From Streptococcus anginosus (lineage in GTDB: Bacteria; Bacillota; Bacilli; Lactobacillales; Streptococcaceae): 64,000 nucleotides of DNA. The position numbers and the translations under genes were made by a program. Of the stretch, positions 13,140 to 29,701 are shown in pieces. Below the pieces are notes generated by a model. It did no database searches. It was not told the origin of the DNA and worked only from the letters and a program-made list of their open reading frames with translations. How positions within the stretch are numbered: position 1 is the stretch's first letter; each line of letters begins with the position of its first letter. The stretch is from assembly GCF_900636475.1 (NCBI RefSeq), contig NZ_LR134283.1, positions 310,001 to 374,000 on the forward strand. The letters are read 5' to 3'.

Positions 13140-13177
13140 TTGACTTTTTGCACCCAAAAGTATATAATTTTAGGTGC
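13140..13177 (+). promoter_or_regulatory. abiE promoter with overlapping palindromic operator
   Basis: TTGACT (13140-13145), 17 bases, TATAAT (13163-13168) is a near-consensus sigma-A promoter. The inverted repeat GCACCCAAAA (13150-13159) / TTTTAGGTGC (13168-13177) with an 8-base centre covers the spacer, the -10 and the start point, so binding would block transcription. AbiEi proteins are known to bind inverted repeats in their own promoters. The site matches the one before topB in reverse orientation. Confidence 0.8.
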
Positions 13178-13192
13178 AAGGAGGTGATTTAT

Positions 13193-13798
13193 ATGATTTC
13201 TATAACGAATCAAATAGAAAAAATTATGTCAGAAAATCAAGGGAAAATTTTTTCTATTAATGATTTCTACAATCTTGGAACAAAAAACACAATTAAATCT
13301 GTCTTATATAGATTAAATGAAGAAAATCAGATTACGAGGCTCATTGATGGATTATATATAAAACCAAAATATAGCGAGATTTTAAAAGAATATTCCTATC
13401 CGGATGCAAGTGAAGTTGCTGAAAAACTTGCAGAAAAATTTTCTTGGACAATAGCTCCCACAGGAGATACAGCTCTAAACTATACAGGATTGTCCACTCA
13501 AATTCCTAATGAGTATATTTATATTTCAGATGGGGCATATAGAGAATATTTGTATAGGGATAAAAAGATCATCTTTAAACACACAACAAATAGAAACATA
13601 ACATCTTATTCCAAAGAATTGTCCATTTTAATACAGGCAATTAAGGCATTAGGCAAAGACAACATCAGTGAAGAAGATATAAAAAAGCTTGCTGTATTTA
13701 CCAAAAGAATTAAAGAAAATTTGAAAGAAGATACTTTAAAACTTCCTTTTTGGATACAGGAAGTTTTAGAAAAGATACAGGAGATCAACTATGAGTAA
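13193..13798 (+). CDS. abiEi: AbiEi-type antitoxin/transcriptional regulator (DUF6088-like)
   Basis: The 201-residue protein has an N-terminal winged-helix segment (QIEKIMSENQGKIFSINDF, then TIKSVLYRLNEENQITRL) and a C-terminal domain with the conserved APTGDTALNYTGLSTQIP and an FKHTTNRN element. AbiEi proteins repress their own operon and neutralise AbiEii in a type IV toxin-antitoxin abortive-infection system. GGAGGTGATTTAT places the start at ATG 13193 rather than an upstream ATG at 13148 that lies in the operator. It overlaps abiEii by 8 bases. Confidence 0.8.
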   Translation: MISITNQIEKIMSENQGKIFSINDFYNLGTKNTIKSVLYRLNEENQITRLIDGLYIKPKYSEILKEYSYPDASEVAEKLAEKFSWTIAPTGDTALNYTGLSTQIPNEYIYISDGAYREYLYRDKKIIFKHTTNRNITSYSKELSILIQAIKALGKDNISEEDIKKLAVFTKRIKENLKEDTLKLPFWIQEVLEKIQEINYE

Positions 13799-14798
13799 AT
13801 TATTAGAAATATCAAGCGAAGAATTAGAGCTTGTTATACAAAACACCGCAGACAAACTCAATATGTCGAAAGCTATTGTAGAAAAAGATTTGTGGGTATG
13901 TGTGATTTTAAAATATCTGTTTAGTAGGTTTAAGTACAGGGATGCTATTGTTTTTAAAGGTGGAACAAGTCTATCTAAAGTTTATAAGTTGATTGAAAGA
14001 TTTTCAGAAGATATAGACCTTGCGTTAGATTGGAAAGTTTTAGGATACGGAAAAATAGAACCTTATGAAGATAGAAGTAATACCAAGCAACTAAAATTCA
14101 ACGATAAAATAAATGATGATACAAAAGTATTTCTGCGTGATGAATTTCTGCCCACTCTACAAAATGATTTTAAAGAAATACTAAAGCACAAAATATATAG
14201 TTTTTATATCGATGAGTTTGACAGACAGACAATATGTTTTGACTATCCTAAAAATCATAAAGATAGCTCGATTCTACAAGTGATAAGATTGGAAATTGGA
14301 AGCTTAGCAGAACCAATTCCTGCAAGCAATCAAAAAATAAAAACTTATATCGAAGAAGTGTATCCGGAAGTATTTGATGAAAATATAGAAGTTGTGGCGG
14401 TAGACAGTTTACGAACCTTTTTTGAAAAGATTACTATACTTCATAGAGAAGCAAATCGAGTGAATGGAAATTATCCGACAAGATATTCAAGACATTTTTA
14501 CGATGTTTATAAAATGATACTAACGGATATTAGAGAAAAGAGTTTTGAAAACATCGAACTATTAAAAATAGTTATTCACTTTAAGAAAAAATTCTACGCA
14601 AGTAATTGGGCGAAATATGATGACATCATGAATGGTAATTTAAAGTTAATACCATCAAAGGAAGGATTAGAAATTTTTTCAAAAGACTATGACCGCATGA
14701 AAAATATGTTGTTTGGAGAAAAGATACCATTTGATAAAATCATTGATACTCTTAAGGAATACGAGAAAGAGTTGAATGGTGTTATAAAAAATAAATAA
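13791..14798 (+). CDS. abiEii: AbiEii-type nucleotidyltransferase toxin
   Basis: The 335-residue protein is a DNA polymerase beta-like nucleotidyltransferase of the AbiEii/AbiGii family. It has the GGTSLSK motif near residues 56-62 and the metal-binding SEDIDLAL near 73-80. A later DSLRTFFEKITILHREANR segment with RYSRHFYDVYKM is also typical. Related toxins modify tRNA 3' ends or other targets and cause growth arrest after phage infection. It is co-transcribed with abiEi (ATGAGTAA overlap) and ends before a terminator at 14815. The pair interrupts the usual topB-helicase neighbourhood and so is a defence insertion. Confidence 0.85.
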   Translation: MSKLLEISSEELELVIQNTADKLNMSKAIVEKDLWVCVILKYLFSRFKYRDAIVFKGGTSLSKVYKLIERFSEDIDLALDWKVLGYGKIEPYEDRSNTKQLKFNDKINDDTKVFLRDEFLPTLQNDFKEILKHKIYSFYIDEFDRQTICFDYPKNHKDSSILQVIRLEIGSLAEPIPASNQKIKTYIEEVYPEVFDENIEVVAVDSLRTFFEKITILHREANRVNGNYPTRYSRHFYDVYKMILTDIREKSFENIELLKIVIHFKKKFYASNWAKYDDIMNGNLKLIPSKEGLEIFSKDYDRMKNMLFGEKIPFDKIIDTLKEYEKELNGVIKNK

Positions 14799-23609: not shown

Positions 23610-23631
23610 TACCATGAAGGGAGATAAAAAT

Positions 23632-24375
23632 ATGGATTACAAAACAATAAGAGATAAAATTGAAGATATGGTAAATGATAACCACAAGGACTTTATGAAG
23701 GCGATTATAAGCATGGAAAAAGGTATCAATGATGAAAGTGCTTTAGACAAGCTCTATGACGCTTATATGGACAATGACAGCCTTAATTTGCTACATGAGG
23801 AATTTGACTATATGATTGAGGATTTAAGAGAACAGGGACAGATAAAAGACCTACCTTATGTTCAGGAAGAGAAAGATAACCTTATAAATATCGTTGGAAA
23901 TGTTGTCGGCAAGGTTGATGTTATTGAGAGAGAAAACAAAAACGGAGAAGCCTTTAAGGTGGCAAATTTCTCTGTTGTATCCAAAGATGATGAGGGTAAT
24001 AAGGTGTATCACAACTGCTCCGCTTATGGAGAAAAGAGTGATATTCCAAAGGACTTTAAGCAGGGAGATTTTGTTAAGCTCTTTGGACAAATTAGAACTT
24101 CCATTGATGATAACGGTAAGGAGCATAGCAATGTAAGGATACTTTCTTCAAAACTCTTAAAGGCAAAGGAACAAATGAAAGGACAGGAGGAAAAGAAAGA
24201 ATCTGTACTTGGAGCTATCAAAAAATATCAGGCTGAAGATAAGGAAAAGCCAAAAAAAAGAAAGAAGCAAGCAAAGAAGCAGAGAGATAAACTTATGGTT
24301 GGTGTGGTCTTAGGACTGCACCGACTCTTTTTTATTTGCGAGAGTTCGATAAAAGAGAATATATTTATGAAATAA
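23632..24375 (+). CDS. ICE protein with central OB-fold (SSB-like), altered C-terminus
   Basis: The product is 247 residues from ATG 23632, which has GAAGGGAG seven bases upstream; an ATG at 23614 is the alternative. The N-terminal 75 residues are helical and unrecognised. The middle (about 85-180) is SSB-like: NIVGNVVGKVDVIE, FKVANFSVVSKDDEGNKVYH, NCSAYGEKSDIP, GDFVKLFGQIRT, closely parallel to the ssb at 3046. A later VLGAIKKYQ resembles ILGQIRAYQ near the end of the helicase protein. The last 25 residues are encoded by a terminator hairpin (24298) and beyond, so the natural stop has probably been lost by a small indel near the A-rich tract around 24252. Confidence 0.7.
   Translation: MDYKTIRDKIEDMVNDNHKDFMKAIISMEKGINDESALDKLYDAYMDNDSLNLLHEEFDYMIEDLREQGQIKDLPYVQEEKDNLINIVGNVVGKVDVIERENKNGEAFKVANFSVVSKDDEGNKVYHNCSAYGEKSDIPKDFKQGDFVKLFGQIRTSIDDNGKEHSNVRILSSKLLKAKEQMKGQEEKKESVLGAIKKYQAEDKEKPKKRKKQAKKQRDKLMVGVVLGLHRLFFICESSIKENIFMK
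24298..24333 (+). terminator. strong terminator lying inside the OB-fold reading frame
   Basis: A 12-bp stem with four G-U pairs (24298-24309 with 24314-24325, loop TTAG) is followed by TCTTTTTT. It closes the ICE operon before the defence cassette, although the reading frame above runs through it. Confidence 0.7.
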
Positions 24376-24398
24376 GTATATTTTATGGTATAATATAC
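24376..24398 (+). promoter_or_regulatory. promoter and operator of the SIR2-HerA cassette
   Basis: An extended -10 (TGG then TATAAT, 24389-24394) lies inside an inverted repeat, GTATATT (24376-24382) / AATATAC (24392-24398). This is a natural operator for the small XRE regulator encoded two genes downstream. No clear -35 is seen, consistent with an extended -10 promoter. Confidence 0.6.
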
Positions 24399-24430
24399 TA
24401 AATAAAGTTTTCTTGAAAGGAGGTTGTTGA

Positions 24431-25372
24431 ATGAAAAAATTTGATAATGAAAAATATCAAATTTTAGCAAAAGATTTAATGGGGGATATTTTTTATTCGG
24501 AGACATCTAATCGGAATAAAATTGCTACCATTCGCCAGTATGCAGAAGTGATAGTGAGAAAAATTTTAGATATTAACCCAAGCAAAAAGATGACTATTGG
24601 TGCAAATGAAATATCTAAAAAACTTGATGCTCTCAACAATAGTGAATTTTTAAAAGAAGCATTAGAGAATATTAGACAGGATGGTAATAAATTTACACAT
24701 ACTGAGTATTTAGAAGAGGTTACATCTGATGAATTTGATAAAATTGTGGATAAGCTTTTGGATATGCTTTCATTCATGCTTATAAATTATTTTGAAACTT
24801 ATGAATTTGGATCAAGAAGTGATGTTTTACAGTCATTTTCATTATTACCCCCAATAGTACGATATAAGGTGCTAATATTTTTATACAGCAAATATCCAAA
24901 TAACATTCATGTTATTGATAGATTGGCATTAGCTATTGTTAAAGCATTTGATAAAGAAGAAGCAATCAGATGGATTGAAGCTGAAAAAAACAACTTGATT
25001 AATTTAGATGTAATGTCAGATAAAGCATTTAATGAGATTGCAGAAAATAAAGGGATAGAATTTGCAAAGCTAATTAGATTTAATTCGCCTTATAAAAATA
25101 TGTATGAGTTGTGTATTGATAAAATTATGAAAATTGGAAATGAAATAGATTCGAAAGGTCATTTGTATATTGACTTTGAAAGTGCATTGCCGTATTACAA
25201 GCAATATGGAATTATAGATGAGGATAGTGAAGAAATAAAAGAATTTAATGATATTATGGATTTTTTATATCTTGGCAGAAGAACAAAATTAGATAGTTTT
25301 ATTAAACTAAAAGAACCATATGTAACTCTAAATGTAATTACAGGGGATAATAATATAGATGAGAGTATTTAG
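24431..25372 (+). CDS. DUF4145 (HEPN-like) protein of the defence cassette
   Basis: The first 130 of 313 residues match the DUF4145 pattern: RQYAEVIVRKILDINPSKK, EISKKLDALNNSEFLKEAL, then NIRQDGNKFTH, where the Arg and His of the signature are seven residues apart. DUF4145 is a HEPN-related helical domain common in defence systems; the spacing is longer than the Rx4-6H of active HEPN RNases, so nuclease activity is uncertain. The C-terminal 180 residues are helical and unrecognised. Start ATG 24431 has AAAGGAGG. It overlaps the XRE gene by 14 bases, which places it in one operon with SIR2 and HerA. It is visibly more AT-rich than the ICE core. Confidence 0.65.
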   Translation: MKKFDNEKYQILAKDLMGDIFYSETSNRNKIATIRQYAEVIVRKILDINPSKKMTIGANEISKKLDALNNSEFLKEALENIRQDGNKFTHTEYLEEVTSDEFDKIVDKLLDMLSFMLINYFETYEFGSRSDVLQSFSLLPPIVRYKVLIFLYSKYPNNIHVIDRLALAIVKAFDKEEAIRWIEAEKNNLINLDVMSDKAFNEIAENKGIEFAKLIRFNSPYKNMYELCIDKIMKIGNEIDSKGHLYIDFESALPYYKQYGIIDEDSEEIKEFNDIMDFLYLGRRTKLDSFIKLKEPYVTLNVITGDNNIDESI

Positions 25373-25571
25373 CTATAAAAGACTATTCAAAAAACTTATT
25401 GATTTAGATATGACAAATAATGAATTGATGGAAAAGGCAAAAATAAGTAAAAGCACATTTTACAAAATGAAGAATGGGCAGAATATAACGACGGATGTTT
25501 TACTTAGAATTTGCAATACTTTGGATTGTGGTATTGAAGAAATTATGGAGTGTAGTGATGAATATAGATAG
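25359..25571 (+). CDS. small XRE/Cro-type regulator
   Basis: The 70-residue protein is a single helix-turn-helix of the YozG-like type: LIDLDMTNNELMEKAKISKS, TFYKMKNGQNITTDVLLRIC, then NTLDCGIEEIME. It overlaps the genes on both sides by 14 bases, so its synthesis is coupled to theirs. It probably represses the cassette from the palindrome at 24376-24398, to keep the SIR2 enzyme low until infection. That role is inferred. Confidence 0.75.
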   Translation: MRVFSYKRLFKKLIDLDMTNNELMEKAKISKSTFYKMKNGQNITTDVLLRICNTLDCGIEEIMECSDEYR

Positions 25572-26622
25572 TGAAGAATTTGAACCAATATTTATGGATA
25601 TTAAGGAACGATACCTATCAGGTGTAAATTTCCCCAAATTAATAGTTGGAACAGGGCTTTCTATTGCAATGAATATTCCGGGAATGTCAAAATTGGCTGA
25701 AAAATTGGGGGAATCGTTTGAAAGTATCGGTGATTTAGAGTTACAGAAGCAGTGGAACAAATATAAGGGGAAGATCAAAGATGAAGGATTAGAAGCAGCC
25801 TTATTAGATGTTTCAATAAGTGAAGAATCGTTTGTGGAAATAATTCGAGAGATAACGAGTGAATTTATTTTAGATGAAGAATATAATCAGCATCGTGATA
25901 TATTAAATGAAATTTCCGGATTTGAAAAATTATTAAAGTACTTATTGGGAACTGTAAGTGTAAATAATCAAGTAATCGATATAATGACTCCTAATTATGA
26001 CAGAATTATAGAACTAATTTGTGATAAATTAAAACTATCAACTACATTAGGATTTTCGGGGAATATGTATCAAACTTTTAATGAAAATATACTAAAACAA
26101 CCTTATGATTTTTTTTCTAAAAGCGTTCCTTTAGTAAGATTATTTAAGCCACATGGATCAGTTAATTGGATAAAAAAGAATGAGAGAGAATATCAGATTA
26201 ATGATTATAAGTTACTAAAAGATAACAAGTGCTATATAGATATTATTACACCAGGCAGTATGAAATATAAGTCAGGAATGATTAACGGTATTTTTAGATG
26301 TCATAGGGAAATTTTTAATGAATTGATAACAGACTCTAAAAAGAATTTTTCTATATTTATTTATGGATATGGATTCAATGACCAGCATTTTAATACAGTA
26401 TTCGAGGATACTCAAAAGGATGTGGTTGTCTTGACAAGGACTATTAAAAAATCATTTTTAGATAGAGCAATGAAAAACGAAAACTGGACTTTATTTTATA
26501 AATATGAAGATAAAGAAGAAAATACAGAAGAAGGAAATTATATGGTATATAAAGGCAAAAAATATAATATAAATAAGGAATTGTGGGATATAAATGTATT
26601 TTCAGAAACTTTTTTAGGGTAG
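25558..26622 (+). CDS. SIR2-domain NADase, partner of HerA
   Basis: The 354-residue protein has a SIR2-like Rossmann fold with LIVGTGLSIAMNIPGM (GTGLS at 31-35), TPNYDR with the expected catalytic Asn at 146, KPHGSVNW with the expected catalytic His at 199, and IYGYGFNDQHF near 268-276. In known SIR2-HerA (Nezha) systems this protein degrades NAD+ on phage infection and assembles with a HerA hexamer. An upstream start at 25495 would run through the XRE gene; ATG 25558 fits the coupled overlap and has GGAG upstream. Both catalytic residues are present, so it should be active. Confidence 0.85.
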   Translation: MNIDSEEFEPIFMDIKERYLSGVNFPKLIVGTGLSIAMNIPGMSKLAEKLGESFESIGDLELQKQWNKYKGKIKDEGLEAALLDVSISEESFVEIIREITSEFILDEEYNQHRDILNEISGFEKLLKYLLGTVSVNNQVIDIMTPNYDRIIELICDKLKLSTTLGFSGNMYQTFNENILKQPYDFFSKSVPLVRLFKPHGSVNWIKKNEREYQINDYKLLKDNKCYIDIITPGSMKYKSGMINGIFRCHREIFNELITDSKKNFSIFIYGYGFNDQHFNTVFEDTQKDVVVLTRTIKKSFLDRAMKNENWTLFYKYEDKEENTEEGNYMVYKGKKYNINKELWDINVFSETFLG

Positions 26623-26631
26623 GAGGAAATT

Positions 26632-28347
26632 ATGGAAGATATTCAAAATTATTTAAATCAAGAAATTGGAGTTGTTCAAAATGTTGATACCAAGAAAGTA
26701 TCTGTATCAGTAGAAAAGGAAGAAATTTTAAATAGGTTAAAAATAAATGATATAGTTGTTTTATCTGGAAATAATGCAGATGAAAAACTAATTGGAATAG
26801 TAACTAGAGTAAGTAAAAAGAGAATTGACATCGATGATGAAGAAACTGAAGAACAAGAGTATTCATTTAACTTTTGTAATATAACTTTAGTAGGTACCTT
26901 TTATAAAAAACTGTCTTCAACTAAACAAAATATTTTTAAAAGAGCGGTGAATACTTACCCTGAAATCAATAGCAAGGTTTATTTGGCAGATGGTAAAGCA
27001 CTCTCTATTATTATGAACTCTCTTGAAAATGAGATATCTTCAGAAAAAAGATTAATCATTGGCAAATATGCAAGTAATAAAACGGTTGAAGCAATTTTGG
27101 ATGGAAATAGATTTTTTCAAAGACACGCAACCATAGTGGGTAGTACTGGAAGTGGAAAATCTTTTACTGTAGCAAATATTCTTGAGAAGGCGAATGAGTT
27201 GGAACATGCTAATTTAATTGTTTTTGATTTGCATGGTGAATACAATGAATTAAGTTATGCTGAACAAATAAAAATTTGTGACTCTGAGGATGGATTACAT
27301 ATTCCTTTGTGGTTTTTTAATTATGAAGAAATTCATTCTTTATTTATTGAATCTTCGGAAGGGACATCTACAAATCAAAGAGCTGCAGTAATTAAATATA
27401 TTTTAGAGCATAAGAAAAGGTATCTTGAAGACAATATGGCTGGATTTTCTTCTGAAATAATTACAGCAGATACTCCGATTCCTTTTTTAGCAAAAGGGTT
27501 AAAAGACTATTTAGAAGATGAAAATATAAAAGAAGAATTCACAGGTGATATTATTCAAAGTGGTCCAAATAAAGGAAAAGAAAAAACAAAACAGGGGCAA
27601 TATTATGGCAAGCTAACTAATCTCATTACGAGATTACAGACAAAAATAGACGATAAAAAATATGGGTTTGTATTTAATGAGAGTAACACTGGAAGAGCTG
27701 AATATTTGAAAGAATTTATTGATAAAATAATGGGGCTAGATAAAAAAGTAAAAGTAATAGATTTATCAGAAGTCCCATCAGATATGTTACCTATGATAAT
27801 AGGTATTGTAACAAGGTTGGTATATGAAGTTCAATTTTGGATGTCGCCTAAAACAGATGAGACTCGACATCCTATAGCCTTCATTTGCGATGAAGCACAC
27901 TTATACATGCCGAGAGATACAACAAAATTGAAAGCGGTTGAGAACAAATCACTGGAGATATTTGAAAAAATCTCTAAGGAGGGGAGAAAATATGGTGTTT
28001 CATTGGTGATTGTTTCTCAAAGACCTGCAGAACTAAATTCCACTATCATATCTCAATGCAATAATATTATAAGTTTGAAAATTACGAATGATAGAGATAA
28101 ATCGGCAGTAGCAACTATGTTAACTGATTCATTGGTAGGTTTGGTTGAAACATTACCTAATCTTGATGTTGGAGAATGTATTGTTATTGGAGATTCAATT
28201 AAATTACCTACTAAAATTATTTTAGACAAACCTAAGGAAGAGCCCAAAAGTTCAACTATTGATTTTTGGGACAGATGGATAGATGGAAAAGGTACAGTTT
28301 TCAATATTGATGAAGCAATTAAATGTATGATTAAACAGACAAGGTAG
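26632..28347 (+). CDS. herA: HerA-type ATPase of the SIR2-HerA defence system
   Basis: The 571-residue protein has an N-terminal HAS-barrel (IGVVQNVDTKKVSVSVEKEE), then the HerA/FtsK ATPase: Walker A GSTGSGKS near 170-177, Walker B FICDEAH near 417-423, and VSQRPAELNSTIISQC with TNDRDKSAVATML. HerA forms hexamers that move DNA; in SIR2-HerA pairs it activates the NADase and may act as a helicase or nuclease scaffold. It starts nine bases after sir2 with GGAGG. It converges on mobA, with 22 bases between the stops. Confidence 0.85.
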   Translation: MEDIQNYLNQEIGVVQNVDTKKVSVSVEKEEILNRLKINDIVVLSGNNADEKLIGIVTRVSKKRIDIDDEETEEQEYSFNFCNITLVGTFYKKLSSTKQNIFKRAVNTYPEINSKVYLADGKALSIIMNSLENEISSEKRLIIGKYASNKTVEAILDGNRFFQRHATIVGSTGSGKSFTVANILEKANELEHANLIVFDLHGEYNELSYAEQIKICDSEDGLHIPLWFFNYEEIHSLFIESSEGTSTNQRAAVIKYILEHKKRYLEDNMAGFSSEIITADTPIPFLAKGLKDYLEDENIKEEFTGDIIQSGPNKGKEKTKQGQYYGKLTNLITRLQTKIDDKKYGFVFNESNTGRAEYLKEFIDKIMGLDKKVKVIDLSEVPSDMLPMIIGIVTRLVYEVQFWMSPKTDETRHPIAFICDEAHLYMPRDTTKLKAVENKSLEIFEKISKEGRKYGVSLVIVSQRPAELNSTIISQCNNIISLKITNDRDKSAVATMLTDSLVGLVETLPNLDVGECIVIGDSIKLPTKIILDKPKEEPKSSTIDFWDRWIDGKGTVFNIDEAIKCMIKQTR

Positions 28348-28369
28348 GGGGAGAAGAGAATATAGAAAA

Positions 28370-29701
28370 CTATCTCTCCATCTCCTTACCCATATAAATT
28401 CCATAATTTTTTCGTATCTTGTAAAGCTCGTCCATAGTAGATTTTGAGGAAGAATACTCTTGCATTAGGGTATTCTTTTTTTCTTGTAATTTATCAAGCT
28501 CAGCTAAAATATCCTTTGAATTTGGGAGCTTGGAATAGGATTTTTTTAGTTCTGAAAGGGCATTTTCATATAGGGTAATCTGAGCTTTGTACTCTTCAAA
28601 AAATGACTTATCAGACGAATTTGCCTTATATTCCTTGTAGTATGCCCTGTATTTTTTAACGGTATTAACTTGTTCCATAGTGGCAGAAAGCAACAGCATT
28701 TCCTTATCAATAACCTTGATTTTATCCTGTAAATTTTGCCTTTCGTCGGCTGCTTTTTGGATGTACTCATCAAGTTGCTTAACGGATTTAATACCTTGTT
28801 CTCTGAGGAAGATAACAGACTCAGCCATTGTATGAAGGTTATGTTTGGTTGCCCAATATTCATAGCCTTTGCTTTCTTTTACTTTAACATTTGTGTTCAT
28901 ATCAATAACATTGCCAATGCGTTTTTTGACGGCAGGGGTTTTAATAGACGATATTTCTGCAATGTGTTCTTTTAACCTTTCTTCAGTATAATCTTCTCCG
29001 ATTGTTTTAGATCTTGTAAATCTCGGCTTATCTTTCGGTTTAAAAGCAATGTGTTTGCCATACTTAATTTCATAGCCAAGATCAGCCATTGTCTTTATAA
29101 AATCGTCCCAATCCTTAGACTGTTTAATCATTCTATCAATGTCAAATTGAAGCTTACTTTTCCAAGAAGTGCCATGTTTTGCCTGTTCGTTTTCATACCA
29201 AGATTTACCGTTAATCATATATTTTTTCTTATAGCTTTCGTAAAACTCGTCAATGACAGATAGGTTATTTTCTTTGCATAACTTATCGCTCTGATAACGG
29301 ATTCTATGATAGCTTTTCTTGTTAGACTGGTAGCACCTACCTGTTACCATATTTACATTATTAAAGATGATGTGATTGTGGATATGTCCCTTATCTATGT
29401 GAGTAGATAAGACAAATTCGTACTCATCTTTGAGTATCTTTTTACACAGCTCCATACCAATCTGGTGATCCAATTCAGGACTTGTTTCTCCCGGTAAAAA
29501 TGATTGAATGAGATGTCGTGAAAGAACGGTTCCTTTTGTTCCTGCGTCATTTCGTGTCCTTAAAAATTGTGTATGAGCAGTTGATTCGTGGCATTTATGA
29601 GTGCTTACTAATAGCTGCTCGTCTGTTTTATCTCCATTTACAATGTAGTCAATGGCAAGATTAAGCGTTGATTTTATTGGGTGTATTTTTGTAATAGCCA
29701 T
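28370..29701 (-). CDS. mobA: MobA-type conjugative relaxase
   Basis: The 443-residue relaxase nicks oriT and pilots the strand to the recipient. The N-terminal 200 residues carry the relaxase fold: Tyr19 in LAIDYIVNG is a candidate nucleophile, and THIDKGHIHNHIIFNNVN at about 100-117 is the metal-binding three-His motif. The C-terminal half is coiled coil (DKIKVIDKEMLLLSATMEQV). It reads leftward, follows mobC with only two bases between, and converges on herA. Confidence 0.9.
   Translation of the reverse strand: MAITKIHPIKSTLNLAIDYIVNGDKTDEQLLVSTHKCHESTAHTQFLRTRNDAGTKGTVLSRHLIQSFLPGETSPELDHQIGMELCKKILKDEYEFVLSTHIDKGHIHNHIIFNNVNMVTGRCYQSNKKSYHRIRYQSDKLCKENNLSVIDEFYESYKKKYMINGKSWYENEQAKHGTSWKSKLQFDIDRMIKQSKDWDDFIKTMADLGYEIKYGKHIAFKPKDKPRFTRSKTIGEDYTEERLKEHIAEISSIKTPAVKKRIGNVIDMNTNVKVKESKGYEYWATKHNLHTMAESVIFLREQGIKSVKQLDEYIQKAADERQNLQDKIKVIDKEMLLLSATMEQVNTVKKYRAYYKEYKANSSDKSFFEEYKAQITLYENALSELKKSYSKLPNSKDILAELDKLQEKKNTLMQEYSSSKSTMDELYKIRKNYGIYMGKEMER

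Follow-up and report, generated by a model that had tools for sequence, protein, structure and literature searches.

SIR2-HerA in an exchangeable slot of Gram-positive conjugative elements, with a small XRE gene as the probable controller

Shared regulators of defence systems

Regulators common to unrelated defence systems have been described, and so have hotspots in integrative and conjugative elements (ICEs) and islands, in the available text of published reports. Here we set beside them a cassette from Streptococcus anginosus, lying in a stretch of 64,000 nucleotides (nt; contig NZ_LR134283.1, positions 310,001 to 374,000; hereafter the window), in which an optional gene, called gene A here, and a 70-residue XRE gene precede the defence genes SIR2 and HerA.

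BrxR and CapW, which are WYL regulators, are likewise one regulator family ahead of diverse defence systems. The available text of two reports places 48% of homologues before such systems (PMC9122601) and includes regulators in defence hotspots of SXT ICEs (PMC9122589). BrxR and CapW are described there as winged helix-turn-helix (wHTH)-WYL-WCX proteins (PMC9122589), whereas the XRE protein of the window is a bare 70-residue HTH_26 protein of Gram-positive ICEs that matches helix-turn-helix families only, without the wHTH-WYL-WCX architecture. It also differs in its place, at a slot edge that does not vary, and in its link to the cargo, which it overlaps or closely precedes. CapH+CapP and CapK+CapS ('controller of associated/adjacent pathways') are pairs of regulatory genes heading diverse immune operons, according to the text available (PMC13373217); the window likewise has two head genes, but gene A carries neither the peptidase motif nor the kinase family of those partners. 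RptR, in the available text of its report, is a tiny repressor before a type I restriction island, with sites over the -10 (PMC12255303). The same text puts RptR mostly beside type I restriction-modification (RM) systems (54 of 117 homologues), does not use the term XRE and describes no exchangeable slot (PMC12255303). The nearest NCBIfam family of the XRE protein is the VanU-type HTH_26 regulator, at 56.7 bits and below the cut-off of 150, and VanU belongs to glycopeptide resistance, not defence. The SIR2-HerA system is also named Nezha or Gao19 in the available text of PMC12322248; the window has the same adjacent genes with intact motifs, but they follow a probable common controller and an optional gene and occupy an ICE slot open to unrelated systems.

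The XRE gene thus has the trait, shared with Cap- and BrxR-like controllers, of a first regulatory gene common to unrelated defence systems, and the cassette head is a minimal, Gram-positive, ICE-slot variant of shared defence regulators. An HTH_26/XRE gene heading a precisely bounded, exchangeable Gram-positive ICE defence slot was not found in the literature searched, which was largely open-access with few preprints. Such a head bears on the question of how mobile elements can deliver harmful defence systems to new cells and hold unrelated ones silent until they are needed.

The slot and its borders

We give a probability of roughly 0.6 to the reading that Gram-positive ICEs have an exchangeable slot, here filled by a defence cassette, and that the XRE gene is the controller before systems that are swapped, with gene A as an optional accessory. 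The slot and the cassette comprise the following features.

23614..24375, + strand: SSB-like ICE gene at the left edge of the slot, context outside the cassette; a homologue borders 23 of 23 intact slots
24297..24326, + strand: intrinsic terminator, closing the upstream ICE operon and retained in empty slots (4 empty sites)
24342..28369, + strand: complete inserted defence cassette, from comparison with the natural empty sites L154, L156, L157 and L160
24375..24399, + strand: inverted repeat AGTATATT-N9-AATATACT spanning the -10, a candidate operator, not conserved
24386..24394, + strand: extended -10 (TGGTATAAT; TG-N-TATAAT) of the head promoter
24431..25372, + strand: gene A, 313 amino acids (aa), all-helical, N-terminally DUF4145/HEPN-like, optional accessory of the head
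25359..25571, + strand: XRE/HTH_26 gene, 70 aa, common head gene of the exchangeable slot and proposed controller
25558..26622, + strand: SIR2 effector gene of SIR2-HerA, 354 aa, with GTGLS, TPNYD and KPHG motifs intact
26632..28347, + strand: HerA ATPase gene of SIR2-HerA, 571 aa, with GSTGSGKS and DEAH intact
28370..29701, - strand: relaxase gene (PF03432), context at the right edge of the slot

The four open reading frames (ORFs) lie where a preliminary description of this DNA had placed them, and their coordinates give the exact 14-base overlaps that it reported for both gene A/XRE and XRE/SIR2; SIR2 and HerA are separated by 9 bases. The unit is AT-rich, as it had also stated (GC 0.287; flanking DNA 0.372 and 0.347). 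It had further proposed that the cassette is an insertion, led by a promoter and tightly packed, with a terminator on one side and the relaxase gene on the other; this is supported. In the four natural empty sites the terminator is kept and the relaxase stop follows within a few tens of bases. The proposed interval of 24376..28347 was nearly right, but the empty sites give slightly wider limits of about 24342-28369.

Slots were compared in a sample of one genome per species. Thirty-three relaxase places were found, 7 of which were left out, one of them at a contig end; in one set, 7 of 17 regions lacked the SSB-relaxase order (L155, L162-L165, L168, L169). Intact slots number 23 in all, five of them coming from XRE or gene A searches only (L032, L114, L142, L143, L148). 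The relaxase-based Streptococcus sample (relaxase at least 65% identical) holds 16 intact slots: 8 with a close XRE gene (the window, L106, L107, L109, L110, L112, L115 and L116), 2 headed by a divergent HTH_26 gene (followed by a YobI-like ATPase in L153 and by a type III RM system and a DncV-like gene in L159), 4 empty, and 2 filled without HTH_26 (L158, L161). XRE had no match in any of the four empty slots, nor in two more distant slots, L166 and L167 (relaxase 55%). Being missing from empty slots, the XRE gene is not part of the ICE backbone.

Alignment of the window with L032, L034 and L035 ends at 25552-25554, within the 3' end of the XRE gene, and restarts for L032 and L034 at 28371-28372, L035 being truncated. 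Among blastn-aligned pairs from 16 loci, the left break precedes the XRE stop by 0 to 79 nt, with the exception of three pairs in which it falls 7 or 231 nt past it; the 231 nt are shared beyond XRE by L032 and Gardnerella L035, after which L035 is truncated. The right break lies at most 12 nt from the relaxase stop in the listed pairs with both borders, with one exception (-27/-26). L110 and L112 are 91% identical on the left (6290 nt) and 94% on the right, yet they hold different restriction systems.

Cargo behind the XRE gene

Searches with the XRE protein gave 40 of 284 same-genus genomes at E <= 1e-6, 12 of which (own included) at 69% identity or more, and 16 of 395 genomes of the order at E <= 1e-12. 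The close-XRE set comprises 25 loci in 21 genomes or records: 19 large regions (L106-L116, L140-L144, L146-L148), L126, L127, L032, L033, L035 and the window. L034 was counted as the same locus as L107, their contigs being equally long (278764), and L150 is apparently the same contig as L033; L145 and L120 have no XRE ORF, and split XRE matches of genome G552 were left out. Divergent HTH_26 matches (47-55% identity; L117-L119, L121-L125, L149) represent other loci outside this count. Within that group, the HTH_26-type genes of L117, L118, L119 and L122 lie at other chromosomal sites, are 52-55% identical to the head XRE and overlap the ends of DUF2326-like genes (by eye). One genome, G396, has four loci with the head XRE (L140-L143), two of which, L142 and L143, have Thoeris-like cargo by ORF pattern.

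Cargo was identified by profile; not all copies were scanned, and copies of the same type were equated by ORF pattern. Behind close XRE genes lie SIR2-HerA, Lamassu, QatABCD, PARIS AriA/AriB and Gabija, together with a type IIG RM system with a second SIR2-HerA, HaeIII-type RM, PstI-type RM with Thoeris, LlaJI-type RM, and an EcoRI-methylase/Dcm fusion with a Ppl-like protein. The SIR2-HerA pair of the window is found in 2 of the 25 loci, the window and L033, which has the same four genes at 94.6% DNA identity over 4377 nt. A different SIR2-HerA stands behind a type IIG restriction system in another two (L108, scanned; L147, by homology), and the remaining 21 contain other cargo or remnants. 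Behind a gene A-XRE head, L034 holds Lamassu (LmuA 534 bits, LmuB 792 bits), while the slot of L032 (7187-9758) holds a PHP-like ATPase of 757 aa with a 101-aa partner and L035 a remnant of that L032-type cargo. The L032 ATPase is AAA_21 by Pfam and 'PHP-like' by eye, and because PADLOC gives weak matches only, the pair is possibly an undescribed defence system. In two Leptotrichia plasmids, L126 and L127, the shared piece starts inside XRE and PARIS comes after it (scanned in L126); a relaxase-tail fragment follows in L126.

One tiny gene family before at least 10 different defence cargos offers a direct test, in which a single mutant could be examined across many systems. Exact borders and natural empty sites also make the slot a search key, whereby unknown genes between XRE and relaxase become defence candidates; examples from the slots so far are the L032 pair and a headless ATPase-subtilase pair in L158 (between 10781 and 14389 of the flipped locus).

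The XRE gene as probable controller

The second gene was correctly described as a 70-residue XRE gene: it matches HTH_26 at 58.2 bits (Pfam cut-off 22), and the solved chain closest to it in sequence is 3tyr, a transcriptional regulator. Selection on it is purifying, with a median dN/dS of 0.10 (55 of 210 pairs with usable dS), and this value of about 0.1, maintained while the cargo changes, is read as that of a system-independent controller. In 20 of 25 loci the first cargo gene could start close to the XRE stop, with a possible start codon at -23 to +22 nt. Of 22 heads, 20 have the TG-N-TATAAT extended -10, both with and without gene A, and a divergent HTH_26 gene twice takes the position of XRE. 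Together with the purifying selection and the lack of XRE in empty slots, these observations lead us to judge that the tiny XRE gene probably controls the systems in the slot.

A single promoter past the operon terminator, which is strong (-20 kcal/mol, z -6.5), would drive gene A, XRE, SIR2 and HerA, and XRE would remain ahead of the slot as the defence systems behind it are exchanged. The XRE protein is predicted to bind DNA as an autoregulator, most likely of the repressor type, that would hold toxic defence genes at a low level in the resting state or when they enter a new host. Such repression to avoid toxicity is suggested by analogy with BrxR, CapW, CapH+CapP, CapK+CapS and RptR. The candidate operator is the inverted repeat, whose arms (24375-24382 and 24392-24399) match at 8 of 8 positions and enclose the extended -10. 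RM controller (C) proteins recognise a C-box, GACT-N3-AGTC, and none is present in 24340-24440.

The effector would be SIR2-HerA, which the preliminary description identified correctly. SIR2 matches PADLOC PDLC04074 at 616.9 bits and HerA matches PDLC04105 at 662.6 bits, each over nearly the whole length. SIR2 has TPNYD at 144 and KPHG at 197, which we take to contain the catalytic N and H, and HerA has GSTGSGKS at 170 and AFICDEAH at 416, presumably the Walker motifs. The closest solved relatives by sequence are 8w9l and 8j4u for SIR2 and 9c1m, 8wiv and 8xau for HerA. The SIR2 ATG is at 25558, with an alternative longer ORF from 25495. By its sequence, the pair is a known anti-phage defence pair. 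In studied SIR2-HerA homologues, phage triggers NAD+ depletion and an attack on DNA, and the pair in the window would be expected to act likewise.

Several observations weigh against the XRE gene as general controller. An extended -10 inside a palindrome had been noted in the window, where it is indeed present, but the palindrome is perfect in just 4 of 22 heads; an 8/8 repeat was also reached by 7 of 300 single-base shuffles, so that the repeat alone is only modestly above chance. The next ORF starts at least 100 nt beyond XRE in 5 of the 25 close-XRE loci: L035 is truncated, L140 lacks defence cargo immediately after XRE, methylase-like remnants are present in L141 and L144, and in L143 a remnant of a restriction system precedes Thoeris. 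The close-XRE set is also biased, since searches with XRE itself supplied most of it. Finally, L158 is filled with an AAA ATPase and a subtilase without an HTH_26 head, so the head is not obligatory, and L161 is filled with a TetR gene (TetR_N) and transporter-like genes (by eye).

We tentatively extend the controller reading further, at somewhat less than even odds. The minimal HTH_26 protein may be a system-agnostic ICE adaptor, lending the same promoter, translational coupling and repression to any toxic system before the relaxase and so allowing safe payload exchange; gene A, where present, might then be a common sensor or a solo defence layer.

Gene A and the two-gene controller

The preliminary description took gene A for a 313-residue protein with a DUF4145/HEPN-like N-terminus. 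Its relatives P0066 and P0071 carry precomputed PF13643, but the window protein itself falls below the Pfam cut-off for DUF4145 (18.9 bits against 23.1). Relatives were found in 10 of 195 related genomes (own excluded; 31-38% identity, E 1.8e-54 to 1.7e-27), and the stretches fetched around these 10 contained no SIR2 or HerA. A further collection of 44 gene A loci, 38 from genome contigs and 6 from IMG/VR viral contigs, includes some of the same genomes. These scans were seeded with peptide patterns, so locus counts are lower bounds. Within the stretches examined, SIR2-HerA is present in 1 of the 44 loci (L033) and absent from 43, a close XRE gene follows gene A in 4 (L032, L034 and L035 by profile, L033 as an XRE ORF), and a relaxase relative is present in 10. 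Elsewhere in Streptococcus, gene A lacks its cassette partners and is flanked by purK- and purB-like genes or lies in regions of histidine genes (names by eye), and homologues without these partners are also found in Gammaproteobacteria and viral contigs. In L025, gene A adjoins AbiH and an FRG-domain gene. A Leptotrichia locus (L060, 5660-8166) has a tandem pair of gene A homologues, each of 308 aa.

The 44 sequences chosen for a gene A alignment are a set distinct from the 44 loci. The HEPN-motif histidine is present in all 44, while the Rx4-6H HEPN RNase motif is absent from the window protein and from 43 of the 44. Rx4-6H is about 80% conserved in DUF4145 according to the available text of PMC3710099, and the comparison favours a non-canonical HEPN-like accessory over an RNase. 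An RNase-like effector role, raised in the preliminary description, is thus not favoured. Its suggestion that gene A and XRE form one system with SIR2-HerA is also not supported, given the counts of 1 in 44 gene A loci (0 in 10 relatives) and 2 in 25 close-XRE loci, an outcome that the description itself had named as refuting. By sequence, gene A is not a component of SIR2-HerA and is optional, most likely an independently travelling, solo accessory defence gene. It sits between the promoter and XRE, and would be needed neither by XRE nor by SIR2-HerA or the slot.

The alternative that survives best, though we consider it unlikely, is that gene A and XRE together form a two-gene controller, in which XRE represses and gene A senses phage or damage and relieves the repression, as CapP or CapK does for CapH or CapS. 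Near-identical gene A copies overlap XRE directly ahead of three cargo types, namely SIR2-HerA (the window, L033), Lamassu (L034) and the PHP-like ATPase (L032, remnant in L035), and two-gene heads of this kind are already known, as the available text of PMC13373217 describes. However, close XRE occurs without gene A in 20 of 25 loci and gene A without close XRE in 40 of 44. The CapP-type peptidase partner is defined by an HExxH zinc motif; gene A has no such motif and no match to a kinase family.

Other explanations of the cassette head

Less likely still, XRE could be nothing more than a hitch-hiker, or a homology arm, at the edge of the slot, with swaps taking place by recombination in flanking ICE genes and no regulation involved. 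XRE and the relaxase do provide the flanking homology in the compared exchanges, but an ICE-borne arm does not fit the absence of XRE from 4 of 4 empty slots, and strong purifying selection and cargo start codons located at the XRE stop codon also speak against it. A mere arm would furthermore leave unexplained the divergent HTH_26 genes in the same place of two slots.

We regard as improbable a toxin-antitoxin pair that would stabilise the cassette, with gene A as HEPN toxin and XRE as antitoxin. Such a pair would fit the small size and overlap of the genes and their location on a mobile element, as well as a weak likeness of XRE to Xre antitoxins (17.7 bits, cut-off 25.8), but gene A and XRE are each mostly found without the other and Rx4-6H is missing from nearly all aligned gene A homologues. 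A dedicated four-gene SIR2-HerA variant with gene A as sensor, effector or brake, the view of the preliminary description, is the least probable of all. The operon is compact and its gene set recurs in L033, but the same gene A-XRE head precedes other systems and gene A homologues almost never accompany SIR2-HerA.

Neighbouring genes

The source genome is 1.95 Mb in one contig, and the ICE gene content includes a coupling protein, a TraG-like P-loop ATPase, a topoisomerase, a 2,906-aa helicase-methylase-like protein, the relaxase and a large serine recombinase. The product of the left-border gene matches no Pfam family above cut-off, and 'SSB-like' is our own reading. Its 253 aa in the window compare with 225 in L032, L107 and L106; the window ORF terminates in another frame, extending across the terminator and into the head promoter. 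The same ICE carries an AbiE-like pair at 13148-14798 of the window, directly upstream of the large helicase gene, in which a DUF6088 protein (216 aa) overlaps AbiEii (335 aa) by 8 bases.

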